Positions 6,488 to 12,650 of a stretch of DNA of 64,000 bases are shown here, one piece after another. Under the pieces are notes generated by a model, which worked only from the letters and a program-made list of their open reading frames with translations, searched no databases and was not told the origin of the DNA. Origin of the DNA: Psychromonas sp. CD1 (lineage in GTDB: Bacteria; Pseudomonadota; Gammaproteobacteria; Enterobacterales; Psychromonadaceae); assembly GCF_002239585.1 (NCBI RefSeq), contig NZ_NDFH01000003.1:434001-498000 (forward strand), read 5' to 3'. Position 1 is the first letter of the stretch; each line of letters starts with the position of its first letter. The position numbers were made by a program, and so were the translations under genes.

Positions 6488-7591
6488 ATGAATACATTAA
6501 TTGAGAAAGCAAACAATCCATTAATTGAACAAGTTAAGACTTCATTAATGGATCAGGTTAAAAATGCATTTAATAATTTATTTCATTATGCGCCGAGTCA
6601 TATTGTCCAAGCACCGGGACGCGTAAATATCATTGGAGAGCACACCGATTACAACGATGGTTTTGTCTTACCTTGTGCGATTGATTTTAAAACGGTTGTC
6701 GCCGCATCTAAGCGTGATGACAATATTGTAAGAGTGATTGCGCTTAATTATGATGCTCAAGAAGATCAATTTTCATTAGAAGAAGAAATTGTTTTTAATT
6801 CTGAATGTATGTGGCCAAACTATATACGTGGTGTACTTAAATGTTTACAAAATCGAGCTTATAAGTTTCAAGGCGCAGATATTGTTGTGTGTGGTGATGT
6901 GCCTCAAGGTGCAGGATTAAGCTCTTCTGCCGCATTGGAAGTAGTGATTGGTGAAACGTTTAATCAATTATACGATTTAAATATAAGCTCTGCGGAAATT
7001 GCTTTAAATGGGCAGCAAGCTGAAAATGAGTTTGTAGGCTGTAATTGTGGGATCATGGATCAATTAATTTCGGCGCAAGGAAAAGCAGACAATGCGTTAT
7101 TAATTGATTGTCGTTCGTTACAAACAACGGCTGTTTCTATGCCACAAAATATATCAATCATCATCATTAATAGCAACAAAACACGGGGCTTAGTGGACAG
7201 TGAATATAATACACGGCGTCTGCAATGTGAACAGGCAGCATCATTTTTTGGCGTGAAAGCATTGCGCGATGTGACGATGGAGCAATTTAACCAACGCGCA
7301 GATGGGCTCGATGACGTCGTTGCAAAACGTGCTCGTCATGTTATTAGTGAGAATGCTCGTACCTTAGAAGCGGCACAGGCATTAATTGATGGCGATTTGT
7401 CTTTGTTAGGGCGATTAATGGCAGAATCACATATCTCTATGCGAGATGATTTCGAGATCACAGTTAAAGAAATTGATAAAATAGTGGATATTGTTAAAGC
7501 TAAAATTGGAGATCAAGGCGGAGTACGCATGACTGGTGGTGGCTTCGGTGGATCGAAACGTTTGCGCAAACGTTTCGATGGTGGTTCGTAA
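6488..7591 (+). pseudogene. galK: Galactokinase, C-terminally truncated and fused to rbs leader sequence
   Basis: Galactokinase (GHMP kinase family) phosphorylates galactose. The reading frame has the galactose-binding [14 protein letters not shown] near residue 45, the phosphate loop GLSSSAALE near 145 and the third motif TGGGFGGS near 348-355. Right after that motif homology stops: the last dozen residues ([11 protein letters not shown]) are encoded by a palindrome belonging to the rbs control region. About 40 C-terminal residues are missing compared with the roughly 382-residue E. coli enzyme, so activity is doubtful. No galM follows. A deletion or a misassembly could explain it. Confidence 0.88.
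7552..7579. promoter_or_regulatory. LacI-family (RbsR-like) double operator ahead of rbsD
   Basis: A perfect 28-base palindrome holding two back-to-back CG-centred sites, GAAACGTTTGC and its mirror GCAAACGTTTC. E. coli RbsR binds a CGAAACGTTTCG palindrome just ahead of rbsD, and this lies about 50 bases before rbsD, so RbsR control is the likely role. Strikingly, it also forms the last codons of the truncated galK. Confidence 0.65.
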
Positions 7592-8057: not shown

Positions 8058-9566
8058 ATGAGACAAGCAATACTTGCATTAGATAATATTTATAAATCAT
8101 TTCCGGGTGTCAAAGCGCTTGATAATGCATGTTTAAAGGTCTATCCAGGAAAAGTTATGGCTTTGTTAGGCGAAAATGGGGCGGGAAAATCTACGTTAAT
8201 GAAAGTATTAACGGGAATTTATCATCTTGATAGTGGGCAGATTAATTATGAAGGTAAAAATGTTAGTTTTTCTGGACCTAGAGACTCGCAACAAGCAGGA
8301 ATAAGCATTATACACCAAGAGTTAAACTTGATTGCAGAGCTCAGCATTGCTGAAAACATTTTTCTGGGTAGAGAAATAACACATGCGTGGGGAGGCATTA
8401 ATTGGAAAGGAATGTATGCACAGGCAGATCTGTTATTACAGCGTTTAAATATTAATTATTCCTCCGCAACTTTACTCGGCGATTTAAGTTTAGGCGAGCA
8501 ACAAATGGTTGAAATTGCCAAAGCGTTATCCTTTAAAGCGAAAGTGATTATTATGGATGAACCTACCGATGCATTAACGGATACAGAAACGCAATCGTTA
8601 TTTAAAGTGATTAATGAGTTACGTGATGAGGGTTACGGTATTGTTTATATTTCGCATCGTTTAAAAGAGATATTTGAAATTTGTGATGATATTACCATTT
8701 TACGAGATGGTAAATTTATAGCTCAAGAAAAAGTCTCTGACATTGATGAAGATAGACTGATTGAATTAATGGTGGGACGTAAATTAAACGATCAGTACCC
8801 ACGTATAGCCGTGCAACATGATGCGGTATGTCTAGATGTTAAAAATATTTCAGGTGACGGAATTTATGATATTAGTTTTATTTTAAAAGAAGGCGAAATC
8901 CTTGGGATCTCAGGACTCATGGGGGCGGGGCGCACTGAATTAATGAAAATGATCTACGGTGCGTTAAAACGCCAACATGGAGATATTTTTTTACAGGGGC
9001 AAAAAATAGATCCCAAAACACCCGCTCAAGCGTTAGCGTTAGGAATTGCTTACATTTCAGAAGATCGTAAAGCCGAAGGTTTAATCCTTGGATTATCTGT
9101 TCAAGAAAATATGTCGCTGTGTGCACTAAAGCATTTTTCAAAGGGGTGGCAATTAGATCATGCAGCCGAAGCCATGGCCGTCGATGACTTTATTAAATTA
9201 TTTAATATAAAAACACCAACTCGTCAGCAAATAATCGGTAATTTGTCGGGTGGAAACCAGCAGAAAGTCGCTATCGCGAAAGGCCTTTTAACTAAGCCTA
9301 AAGTATTGATTTTAGATGAGCCAACGCGTGGTGTAGATGTAGGGGCAAAAAAAGAGATCTATCAATTAATCAATAAATTTAAAGCGCAAGGAATGAGTAT
9401 TATTTTAGTTTCATCAGAAATGTCTGAGGTCCTCGGTATGAGTGATCGTATTTTAGTGATGCATCAAGGCAAAATTAGTGGTGAATTTAGCGCCCAAGAC
9501 GCTGATCAAGAGAAGCTAATGGCTTGCGCTATTGGTAAAAACAGGGAGAAACAAGCGAATGAATGA
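8058..9566 (+). CDS. rbsA: Ribose ABC transporter ATP-binding protein
   Basis: RbsA is the cytoplasmic ATPase of the ribose importer, with two fused nucleotide-binding domains in 502 residues. Domain 1 has Walker [10 protein letters not shown] (38-46), signature LSLGEQQ and Walker [12 protein letters not shown]. Domain 2 has the degenerate Walker [10 protein letters not shown] near 292, as usual for this family, with LSGGNQQKV and [13 protein letters not shown]. The end overlaps the start of rbsC by 8 bases (ATGAATGA), pointing to coupled translation. Confidence 0.97.
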
Positions 9567-10542
9567 GCAACAGTTAGGCACTCAAATGAAGCACAAAAAA
9601 AAACAGGGTATGAGTAAAACGTGGTTAATCGAACAAAAAGCATTAATTGCTTTAATTTTACTCATTGTAGTTGTTTCTTTTTTAAATGAATATTTTTTTA
9701 CATTAAATAATATTTTAAATATTTTACGGCAAACCTCTGTCATTGCTATTTTGGCGGCGGGTATGACGTTAGTTATTCTAACCGCTGGCATAGATTTAAG
9801 TGTTGGTTCCATTTTAGCGTTATGTGGCGCATTTTCTGCCACGATGATAGGTCTTAATATATCCGTCTTTATTGCGGTTCCTGTGTCTCTTTTTGCCGGT
9901 TTAGTTTTAGGCTCTATGACAGGGATAATTATCGCAAAAGGCAAGGTACAAGCCTTCATTGCCACCTTAGTCACCATGACCTTATTACGTGGTGTTACCA
10001 TGGTTTATACGGATGGACGGCCTATTTCAACAGGATTTAGTGATGTATCTGATGCATTTTCATTATTTGGAACAGGTTATTTTTTGTCCGTACCGATTCC
10101 TGTTTGGCTAATGTTTTTGGTGTTTATAAGTATTTGGTATTTGTTAAATCATACTCGTTTTGGGCGTTATATTTATGCGTTAGGGGGGAATGAAGTCGCC
10201 ACACAATTATCCGGCATTAATGTTGATAAAATCAAAATAGGTGTATATGCCATATGTGGTTTATTGTCTGCATTAGCGGGGATTATTATTACTTCTCGAC
10301 TTTCATCGGCACAACCTACGGCGGGTGTGGGTTATGAATTAGATGCGATTGCAGCTGTTGTACTTGGCGGTACCAGCTTGGCGGGAGGTAAAGGGCGCAT
10401 CATGGGTACGTTAGTTGGGGCACTTATCATTGGTGTTTTAAATAATGCACTCAATTTGCTCGATGTTTCTTCATATTACCAAATGATTGTCAAAGCGGTG
10501 GTTATTTTATTAGCCGTTTTGGTTGATAAGAAAGATAAATAA
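9559..10542 (+). CDS. rbsC: Ribose ABC transporter permease
   Basis: RbsC is the inner-membrane channel of the ribose importer. From ATG 9559 it has 327 residues against 321 in E. coli. Many hydrophobic segments and the family motif [19 protein letters not shown] near residue 80 are visible. The start overlaps the rbsA stop and has AGGGAGA about ten bases upstream. The operon should go on to rbsB and rbsK, but host sequence stops about 45 bases after rbsC and cloning-vector sequence begins. Confidence 0.96.
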
Positions 10543-10591
10543 GAGATGTATAAAGGAGATCAGATGCGTCCTTTAAAATGGTGAGGCGTCC

Positions 10592-10614
10592 AGCTTGCAT
10601 GCCTGCAGGTCGAC
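10592..10614 (+). other. pUC-type polylinker fragment, left vector edge
   Basis: The bases from AGCTTGCATGCC to GGTCGAC are the HindIII-SphI-PstI-SalI part of the pUC/M13 polylinker. The HindIII site is incomplete on the host side, so the join to host DNA lies around 10585-10592. This is cloning-vector sequence, not a natural feature. Confidence 0.93.
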
Positions 10615-10617
10615 GAT

Positions 10618-10642
10618 TTAATATTAAATATATTGAGCCTGC
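10618..10642 (+). repeat. Left copy of a 25-base inverted repeat flanking the cloned insert
   Basis: The segment beginning TTAATATTAAATATATTGAG is the exact reverse complement of 11424-11448. Matching ends on a cloned piece suggest a linker or a single primer acting at both ends. This is an inference. Confidence 0.85.
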
Positions 10643-11433
10643 TGCTGCGAAGCGGCTGCACGCTGCTGCTCACGTATCAGTTCGTCGTTACGCGTAAGCC
10701 ACTGAAAATCTTTCTGTTGGCTTTGCTGCTGTGCCAGCAGGACTTTTTCTTCGTCAGTAAGTGCCTGCAAACTTTGCTGCAAGTGCTGCTGCTGTTCCTC
10801 GCTCAGCAGCACAACCCCTGCGGCCTGCGCTTCGCACATCTCCAGCGCGTTACGTGCCGCTTTGTGTTTTTCAAAAACCATGGCGGAAATCTGGCCGTAA
10901 ATTTCCGTGCCGGTCAGTTCTTCCAACAGCTCTGCGCGATCGCTCGGTTTAGCATTCAGGAAGGCGGCAAACTGCCCCTGAGAGAGCAACATCGAGCGGG
11001 TAAAGCGACCATAGTCCAGCCCGGTAAGCGCGGCGGTTTGTTCCAGCTTATCCGTGACTTTGTCGGCCAGAATTTTGCCGTCTTCGCAGCGGGCCAGCTC
11101 AACGCGCGGTGCCTGTAAGTTCCCGTCCGGCTGGTTGCGGGCGCGGTTCTGGCTCCAGAAAGCGCGATAAGCAACGCCTTTGACCTCAAATTCCACTTCT
11201 GCCAGGCATTCGGCGGTATCGCGCGTCATCAGGTCGTTTTGCGCCTGAGAGACCTTATTAAGACGCGGCGTTTCGTGATAAAGCGCCAGGCAGATGGCAT
11301 CCAGCAGCGTGGTTTTACCCGCGCCGGTTGCGCCGGTGATGGCAAACAGTCCGTTGCTGGCGAACGGCTCCGCGGTGAAATCAATTTTCCACTCACCCTT
11401 TAGCGAATTCAGATTTTTCAGGCGCAGGCTCAA
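10624..11433 (-). pseudogene. sbcC: Foreign enterobacterial SbcC N-terminal fragment (cloned insert)
   Basis: SbcC is the ATPase subunit of the SbcCD exonuclease. This frame holds only about the first 265 of more than 1000 residues: the Walker A region [33 protein letters not shown] and the start of the coiled coil, with no Walker B. It is very close to enterobacterial SbcC but not identical, as I recall it, to the K-12 protein. It is visibly far richer in G+C than all neighbours and is bracketed by pUC polylinker on both sides, so it is cloned DNA of another organism. The true ATG is lost. Confidence 0.93.
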
Positions 11434-11448
11434 TATATTTAATATTAA
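11424..11448 (-). repeat. Right copy of the 25-base inverted repeat flanking the cloned insert
   Basis: Reverse complement of 10618-10642. It lies between the sbcC codons and the XbaI-BamHI side of the polylinker. Confidence 0.85.
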
Positions 11449-11449
11449 T

Positions 11450-11722
11450 CTCTAGAGGATCCCCGGGTACCGAGCTCGAATTCGTAATCATGGTCATAGC
11501 TGTTTCCTGTGTGAAATTGTTATCCGCTCACAATTCCACACAACATACGAGCCCGGAAGCATAAAGTGTAAAGCCTGGGGGGTGCCTAATGAGTGGAGCT
11601 ACTCACATTAATTGCGTGCGCCTCACTGCCCGCTTCCAGTCGGAAGCTGTCGTGCAGCTGCATATGAATCACACGCCCCGGGGAAAGGCGATTGGCGAAT
11701 TGGGGGCGCCTCTTTCCGGCTA
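11450..11722 (-). other. pUC-type vector: polylinker, lacZ-alpha start, lac operator and promoter
   Basis: Reading right to left this is the pUC lac region. The lacZ-alpha ATG is at 11495-11497, followed by EcoRI-SacI-KpnI-SmaI-BamHI-XbaI sites. Its frame runs through the polylinker into the insert and stops soon after. From about 11555 onward the match to pUC degrades steadily with single-base gains, losses and changes (for example CCCGGAAGC for CCGGAAGC and GAGTGGAGCTACTCAC for GAGTGAGCTAACTCAC). That is the pattern of the low-quality end of a Sanger read. Vector likeness fades out near 11720. Confidence 0.95.
11515..11535 (-). promoter_or_regulatory. lac operator O1 (vector-derived)
   Basis: An exact lacO1 sequence on the minus strand (AATTGTGAGCGGATAACAAT and one more base). 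The lac -10 box is at 11542-11547 and the -35 box at 11567-11572 in complement. The spacer holds one extra base compared with the true lac promoter, a probable read error. Confidence 0.95.
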
Positions 11723-11973
11723 AGAAGTTTTTTTGAGATATTATATACGTTCATTAAAGCTCGCTATCAATACCCCTTCACACCGTACCTCTCTATAGAT
11801 GTTCAAAAGACAAGTCATTCATAGAGAGTTTAAAATAATTTTCCTGGTTTTGTAATCTAAAGATTAATTTTTATATAATTACGCATCTTAAATCAGAAAA
11901 TAAGGAGATAAATTGGTCTGAAAATTGCTTACTAAACAGAGATAGTTAGATTTTTCTTTGAAAGGCAAAGCAA
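11723..11973. other. Non-coding host sequence after the vector block
   Basis: AT-rich host-like sequence resumes here. A ribosome-binding-like AAAGGCAAAG precedes the frameshifted gene that follows. I see no gene or clear promoter in it, and nothing resembling the expected rbsB. Confidence 0.4.
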
Positions 11974-12650
11974 ATGACTACAAATATAATGAATACACTT
12001 TCTTCTCCTTTAAAAAACACATTAAGTCATGATGTGAAATCAAAAACTGCTCCTCTGGTAGATATCCATAATACAGACCCCAAGATGCTAAAGCTTGATA
12101 AAAAGGCGGTAAATAAAGAGGCTGATGTTGTTTTTTCCGATCGATCTCTCAAAATGCAGGCTATCTCTAAAGATTTTTTTCAACAGGGGGGTTAGCACTA
12201 AGTGATGTTCCAAAATATATACAACGTTTACAAAAAGATGGTTTTATAAGTGCACAACAATCACAAAAACTTTGTGATTCAAATATCGGTAAAGCGGAAA
12301 AATTAAGCCGTAGTACGGCAAAAATCGTTAACTTTTTAAGTGATTTCAAAGTAAAAGTCGTAGCGCAAGATAAACAAGATCCGTTAATAGATATTTTATC
12401 TCAAGCATCAAAAATTGTTGAAAATTTAGGCGAGATGAACGGGAAAACAAGCGCAGAAACGGTGAAAGGCACTTTGTTTAAATTACAAGCTTATTTAGAC
12501 AGCTCCGACGCTTCGAAATGGAGTAAAGCATCATTAAGATCTTTAAATGATGTAAAAAGTATTCTATCGGTGACGGACAAGTTAGCGTTAAATCCAAGCA
12601 ACTCAAAGGCTACAAATCGTTATTTACAAGTATCAAAGGGAACTATTTAA
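11974..12650 (+). pseudogene. Hypothetical protein gene broken by a one-base frameshift
   Basis: The first frame runs 73 codons from ATG 11974 to a stop at 12193-12195. The next frame stays open from the same point to a stop at 12648-12650. Adding one base to the six-G run at about 12186-12191 would join them into a protein of about 225 residues. The composition is consistent across the break: hydrophilic, Lys/Ser-rich, with helical stretches (SDVPKYIQRLQKDGF, AEKLSRSTAKIVNFL). I do not recognise the family, and I see no signal peptide or membrane segment. A sequencing error in the G run is as likely as a real mutation. Confidence 0.6.

Follow-up and report, generated by a model that had tools for sequence, protein, structure and literature searches.

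The window, by which we mean the whole stretch of 64,000 nucleotides that was analysed, lies on contig C3 of a Psychromonas assembly of 1,688,234 bp in 3 contigs with a listed completeness of 79.91%, and carries an rbsC reading frame (9532-10542, stop codon 10540-10542) that is followed by cloning vector, a foreign insert and, from 11907, host sequence again. Host gene order was compared with that of G010, a single-contig genome of 3.05 Mb from the same genus whose RbsC, at 92%, came nearest of those in the 30 relatives searched. From left to right, the features between and including the two host flanks are the following:

10540-10561, + strand: 3' end of rbsC and the last host bases aligning to G010; the alignment stops at 10561
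10562-10590, no strand: low-quality start of a Sanger read, with degraded vector 5' of the polylinker
10591-10617, + strand: left arm of a T-vector, SphI-PstI-SalI, ending in GTCGAC-GATT (EcoRV half site plus T); 27/27 identity to the vector record at 10592-10618
10618-10642, + strand: first copy of a PCR primer, a 25-mer that recurs at C3:7110-7134
10643-11423, - strand: insert of foreign DNA holding the 5' portion of sbcC, its source Enterobacter hormaechei-like (protein, DNA and family matches)
11424-11448, - strand: second, inverted copy of the PCR primer
11449-11483, + strand: right-arm polylinker of the T-vector, XbaI-BamHI-SmaI-KpnI-SacI-EcoRI (restriction sites)
11484-11726, - strand: start of the vector lacZ-alpha, lac operator/promoter and beyond, with identity decaying rightward as at the end of a Sanger read
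11727-11906, no strand: AT-rich stretch with no G010 match in the search made; candidate origins are a host contig end or a read tail
11907-12650, + strand: right host flank, frameshifted homologue of a 226-aa G010 gene; the alignment starts at 11907

The gene adjoining the right join (11974-12650) is split into two frames, its G010 homologue being a single 226-aa frame. Elsewhere in the window, a galK-like frame (6488-7591) and its homologue in G010 part ways close to the 3' end, with 337 of 383 residues aligned.

The left arm holds sites for SphI (10597), PstI (10603) and SalI (10609), and the right arm those for XbaI (11451), BamHI (11457), SmaI (11462), KpnI (11466), SacI (11472) and EcoRI (11478); no AAGCTT, and hence no intact HindIII site, occurs anywhere in 10400-11800. 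Compared with the cloned-vector record GQ149348.1 (L139), positions 10592-10618 are identical at 27 of 27 bases and the right arm is 91% identical over 269 aligned bases, the identity standing at 100% across 11457-11546 and then at 97, 87, 91, 83 and 71, down to 63% by 11726, which is the drop toward the read end that characterizes an untrimmed read. The insert is bounded by T/A junctions, GTCGAC-GATT on one side and AATC-TCTAGAGG on the other, which are present in this island at 10591-11483 and in two others on the contig (L009 and L010), while the single arm of a further island (L011) has a junction of the same type and the vector record has identical GATT/AATC junctions. We take GATT/AATC between SalI and XbaI to be an EcoRV site with T overhangs after T/A cloning, as in pMD18-T, and EcoRI adjoining the lacZ start to represent pUC18 polarity. 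The record itself, deposited as an 'E. coli plasmid', resembles over L139:880-1260 a concatemer of PCR primers cloned in a T-vector, the insert having the look of 16S-primer pieces in a row.

The initial annotation had recognized a cloning vector embedded in the assembly, and the identity of both arms and the ordered sites bear this out; its polylinker order stands from SphI to EcoRI but loses the HindIII site that it had placed first, and the vector that it named pUC keeps the pUC18 polarity, although it is not plain pUC but a T-vector derivative with T/A junctions. The rightward decay, which it had likened to the end of a Sanger read, is likewise upheld by the identities given above, and to this we add that the left edge of the island is ragged too, as at the start of a read, and that 10578-10642 recurs with 100% identity in a second vector island, at C3:215012-215076. 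At the level of sequence, the reading of window positions ~10578-11726 as one untrimmed Sanger read of a T-vector clone, an artefact that is no part of the host genome, is confirmed. A pMD18-T clone (TaKaRa; the vector named in PMC5893861) is like the island in its pUC18 polarity and its SalI-GATT / AATC-XbaI T/A junctions, and the vector would, according to the paper, be pMD18-T, an identification that combines PMC5893861 with the general features of this vector and a comparison with the junctions of the L139 record.

The insert contains a 269-aa reading frame that represents the N-terminal part of SbcC (N-terminal 267 residues of the SbcC family). At 99% amino acid identity, the sequence from Enterobacter hormaechei (L015) is the top match among the best 80 of 567 confirmed relatives, and the DNA is 96.6% identical over 800 bp to sbcC of Enterobacter hormaechei DSM 14563 (L015; genome G031). 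This, together with a G+C content of 56.5% against 36.4% for the window minus the island, agrees with the enterobacterial sbcC fragment of higher G+C described by the initial annotation. E. coli was ruled out as the source of the insert, its best sbcC match being 80.6% identical. Natural horizontal transfer from enterobacteria, against which the initial annotation had cautioned, is ruled out as well, the fragment having copies of the PCR primer and arms of the T-vector at its borders, and the gap-cloning methods given in PMC5893861 point the same way. There is no host sbcC gene at the join, and the fragment should be neither annotated as a gene nor read as an enterobacterial transfer.

Two observations go beyond the initial annotation: the pair of PCR primer copies that flank the insert, and three more vector islands on the same contig. 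The exact 25-mer stands at both insert ends in inverted orientation, at 10618-10642 (+) and 11424-11448 (-), giving 2 matches against a mean of 0.00 in 100 shuffles when up to 3 mismatches are allowed; the first T of the first copy may be the vector T, and the last two bases of the second also supply the two A's of the AATC junction, with one A fewer than in L009 and L010. Outside the vector islands the assembly has it once, upstream of aspA at C3:7110-7134. The alignment of this copy to the aspA upstream region of G010 is imperfect, and a primer with this 5' to 3' sequence would be directed away from aspA; because of this single copy, the 25-mer very probably served as a primer for closing gaps in the host genome. 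G010 gene order breaks at the same place, alignments stopping at L012:1581 and restarting at 1628 on opposite G010 strands, and L012:1581-1635 (C3:7080-7134) may be a contig end or another closed gap.

When both vector arms were searched against the assembly, four islands came up, all on contig C3: 10578-11726 of the window, C3:214.4-215.9k, 866.9k and 1179.4-1180.5k. The one at L009:1880-3560 (C3:214379-216059), which has a stretch resembling RNase P RNA (recognized by eye) upstream of it, comprises two clone reads, with a GC-rich insert (L009:2028-2440, about C3:214.5-214.9k), whose 131-aa ORF gave only a sub-threshold Pfam match, and with Enterobacter rmuC. The third island, at L010:1890-2960 (C3:1179389-1180459), has the same rmuC product, 603 bp long and letter-identical in L009 and L010, in opposite orientation relative to the vector arms. 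This insert has a Pfam match to RmuC, for which reason a motB label was dropped, and is 97.4% identical in DNA over 571 bp to Enterobacter hormaechei DSM 14563 (L111, G031), the best rmuC match among the 5 Enterobacter genomes compared; the 27 (sbcC) and 15 (rmuC) mismatches to DSM 14563 point to a different strain. The rmuC repeats are not biology, because one clone product occurs twice, 0.96 Mb apart and both times inside vector. In the remaining island, at L011:1359-2612 (C3:866858-868111), there is a single vector arm, after which comes a phage-terminase-like stretch (Pfam Terminase_3); a portion of this stretch recurs at C3:667682-668454 with 94% identity. The 25-mer, sought in this 866.9k insert, was absent. 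The terminase-like stretch may be the host's own DNA, and this join, though untrimmed, is therefore not demonstrated to be a false one.

PMC5893861 describes Psychromonas sp. CDP1 (NDFH00000000; three contigs, 1,688,241 bp) as a gut bacterium of a Challenger Deep amphipod, assembled from metagenomes and reported to be 99.3% complete with 0% contamination, a 'nearly complete' reduced genome; it and the present assembly both have three contigs, and their totals differ by 7 bases. Going by contig number and size, the window would belong to this deposited genome, with the 7-base difference counting against the match. By the same account, 11 SPAdes contigs were ordered by alignment to other Psychromonas genomes, gap PCR was performed on amphipod metagenomic DNA with primer pairs flanking adjacent contigs and with Phusion as the polymerase, and the products were cloned in pMD18-T, Sanger-sequenced and 'manually linked', closing eight gaps (PMC5893861). 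The deletion of torCAD is also reported there, and an inspection by eye of ORFs listed for G010 intervals turned up no torA-like gene. A literature search by strain and accession, most subscription journals lying outside its coverage, yielded just PMC5893861 itself and one unrelated paper, and so no published correction of the CDP1 genome.

The island almost certainly stems from a gap-closing PCR that failed. A primer based on the host sequence upstream of aspA would have annealed wrongly, at both ends, to contaminating DNA of an Enterobacter hormaechei-like bacterium; the amplified fragment would have been T/A-cloned into a pUC18-derived T-vector (pMD18-T according to PMC5893861), the clone would have been read through by Sanger sequencing from the HindIII side of the vector, and the untrimmed read would have been joined by hand between two host contigs whose order agrees with that in a relative. 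Gap PCR, pMD18-T, Sanger sequencing and manual linking are steps taken from PMC5893861, and the present analysis contributes the T-vector arms, the inverted primers, the Enterobacter insert, the mispriming at the 3' end, the read-like decay and the recurrence of primer and vector. For the mispriming, the last 8 primer bases match the Enterobacter template at 7, 8, 7 and 8 of 8 positions at the four ends of the sbcC and rmuC inserts, and the first 17 at just 5, 7, 6 and 1 of 17, the template being that of a related Enterobacter strain rather than of the actual contaminant; at least 7 of the last 8 bases are matched at 0.11% of 14,690 template positions.

This pattern, in which the 3' 8 bases match the native template and the 5' 17 match it poorly, argues for mispriming rather than for ligated adaptors. 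Had a clone from a shotgun library, with adaptors ligated to contaminant DNA, entered the assembly, it would likewise display vector, a foreign insert and the same sequence at both ends, but adaptors would not fit the native insert sequence at 7-8 of 8 bases at four of four ends, the 25-mer also sits upstream of aspA in the host, and PMC5893861 describes T-cloned PCR products, which together make such a clone highly improbable. A real integration, engineered or natural, of a plasmid with Enterobacter sbcC into the bacterium has nothing in its favour except contiguity in the assembly, and it is so improbable that it can be set aside: the read start is ragged and the read end decays, the same read-start letters recur at the second island, a letter-identical 603-bp rmuC product stands at two further places in opposite orientation to the vector arms, and the bacterium of PMC5893861 is known from metagenome assembly.

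As regards the failed gap-closing PCR itself, we infer which reaction used the 25-mer, and amplification from a single primer appears to have taken place, against which counts the statement of primer pairs in PMC5893861. One primer stands at both ends of three complete inserts (two distinct products), and a further point against is the insert at 866.9k, from which this primer is absent. Phusion leaves blunt ends, and cloning in a T-vector would therefore need an A-tailing step that is unstated in the available text of the published account, a point that counts against the explanation.

In G010, 16,188 bp separate the flanks of the rbsC join, an interval with 15 genes of at least 150 aa, including rbsB, rbsK, radA, an M18 aminopeptidase, an RbsR-like repressor (below the curated cut-off) and recX (below cut-offs). 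When these 15 genes were searched against the window with tblastn, none was present, as against 31 of 38 flanking G010 genes (8/8 on the left, 23/30 on the right), a count that is confined to genes of at least 150 aa, omits four unmatched G010 genes (1330564-1338877) lying past the left edge of the window, scores gene 1398544 with its weak 28% match as absent, and scores as present the partial matches of 1339007 (cut by the window edge) and 1369439 (frameshifted here). A DNA search of the whole assembly with the interval yielded two weak patches elsewhere, at 67 and 70%, its sole positive control being the right flank, recovered at 71%; a DNA search of the assembly with the stretch from rbsB to an emrD-like gene was empty.

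The initial annotation had held that the true sequence after rbsC is probably missing, and a loss of host sequence from the assembly at this point is indeed likely from the gene comparison, albeit not proven, because genes are also absent where no artefact lies. It could be that the join is artefactual and the 16.2 kb were nevertheless truly lost by genome reduction, with little host sequence missing: away from the artefact, 7 of the 30 right-flank G010 genes are absent, up to three in a row, and the 15 absences are not independent events, because losses can run together, as in that control. Set against this are the contrast between the interval and its flanks, the severing of the ribose operon just after rbsC, without rbsB and rbsK, and the listed completeness, and we regard such a true loss as unlikely, though deserving of serious attention. 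Our inference is that the join leaves out genes which the host still carries, and not ones that it shed in the course of evolution.

Opposite the other islands, the G010 intervals measure 18.1 kb (L009), 39.1 kb (L010), which includes recA and mutS, and 8.3 kb (L011), the intervals at the four vector-bearing joins totalling 81.7 kb and including rbsBK, radA, recX, recA and mutS. The 18.1-kb interval is partly represented in the assembly, a chemotaxis-receptor-like gene to the right of the L009 join being 64-71% identical to three copies inside it. We lean toward the view that the published genome reduction is partly an artefact, in which false closures hide host sequence at three or more joins, and, if this reading is true, some of the 'lost' functions may exist in the living bacterium, as follows from the G010 genes that lie opposite the joins. 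Provided that the match to the source holds, a genome that serves as an example of symbiont genome reduction has vector left untrimmed at four joins, three of which also hold foreign DNA, and claims of gene absence that rest on regions beside vector joins need to be rechecked against the raw reads.
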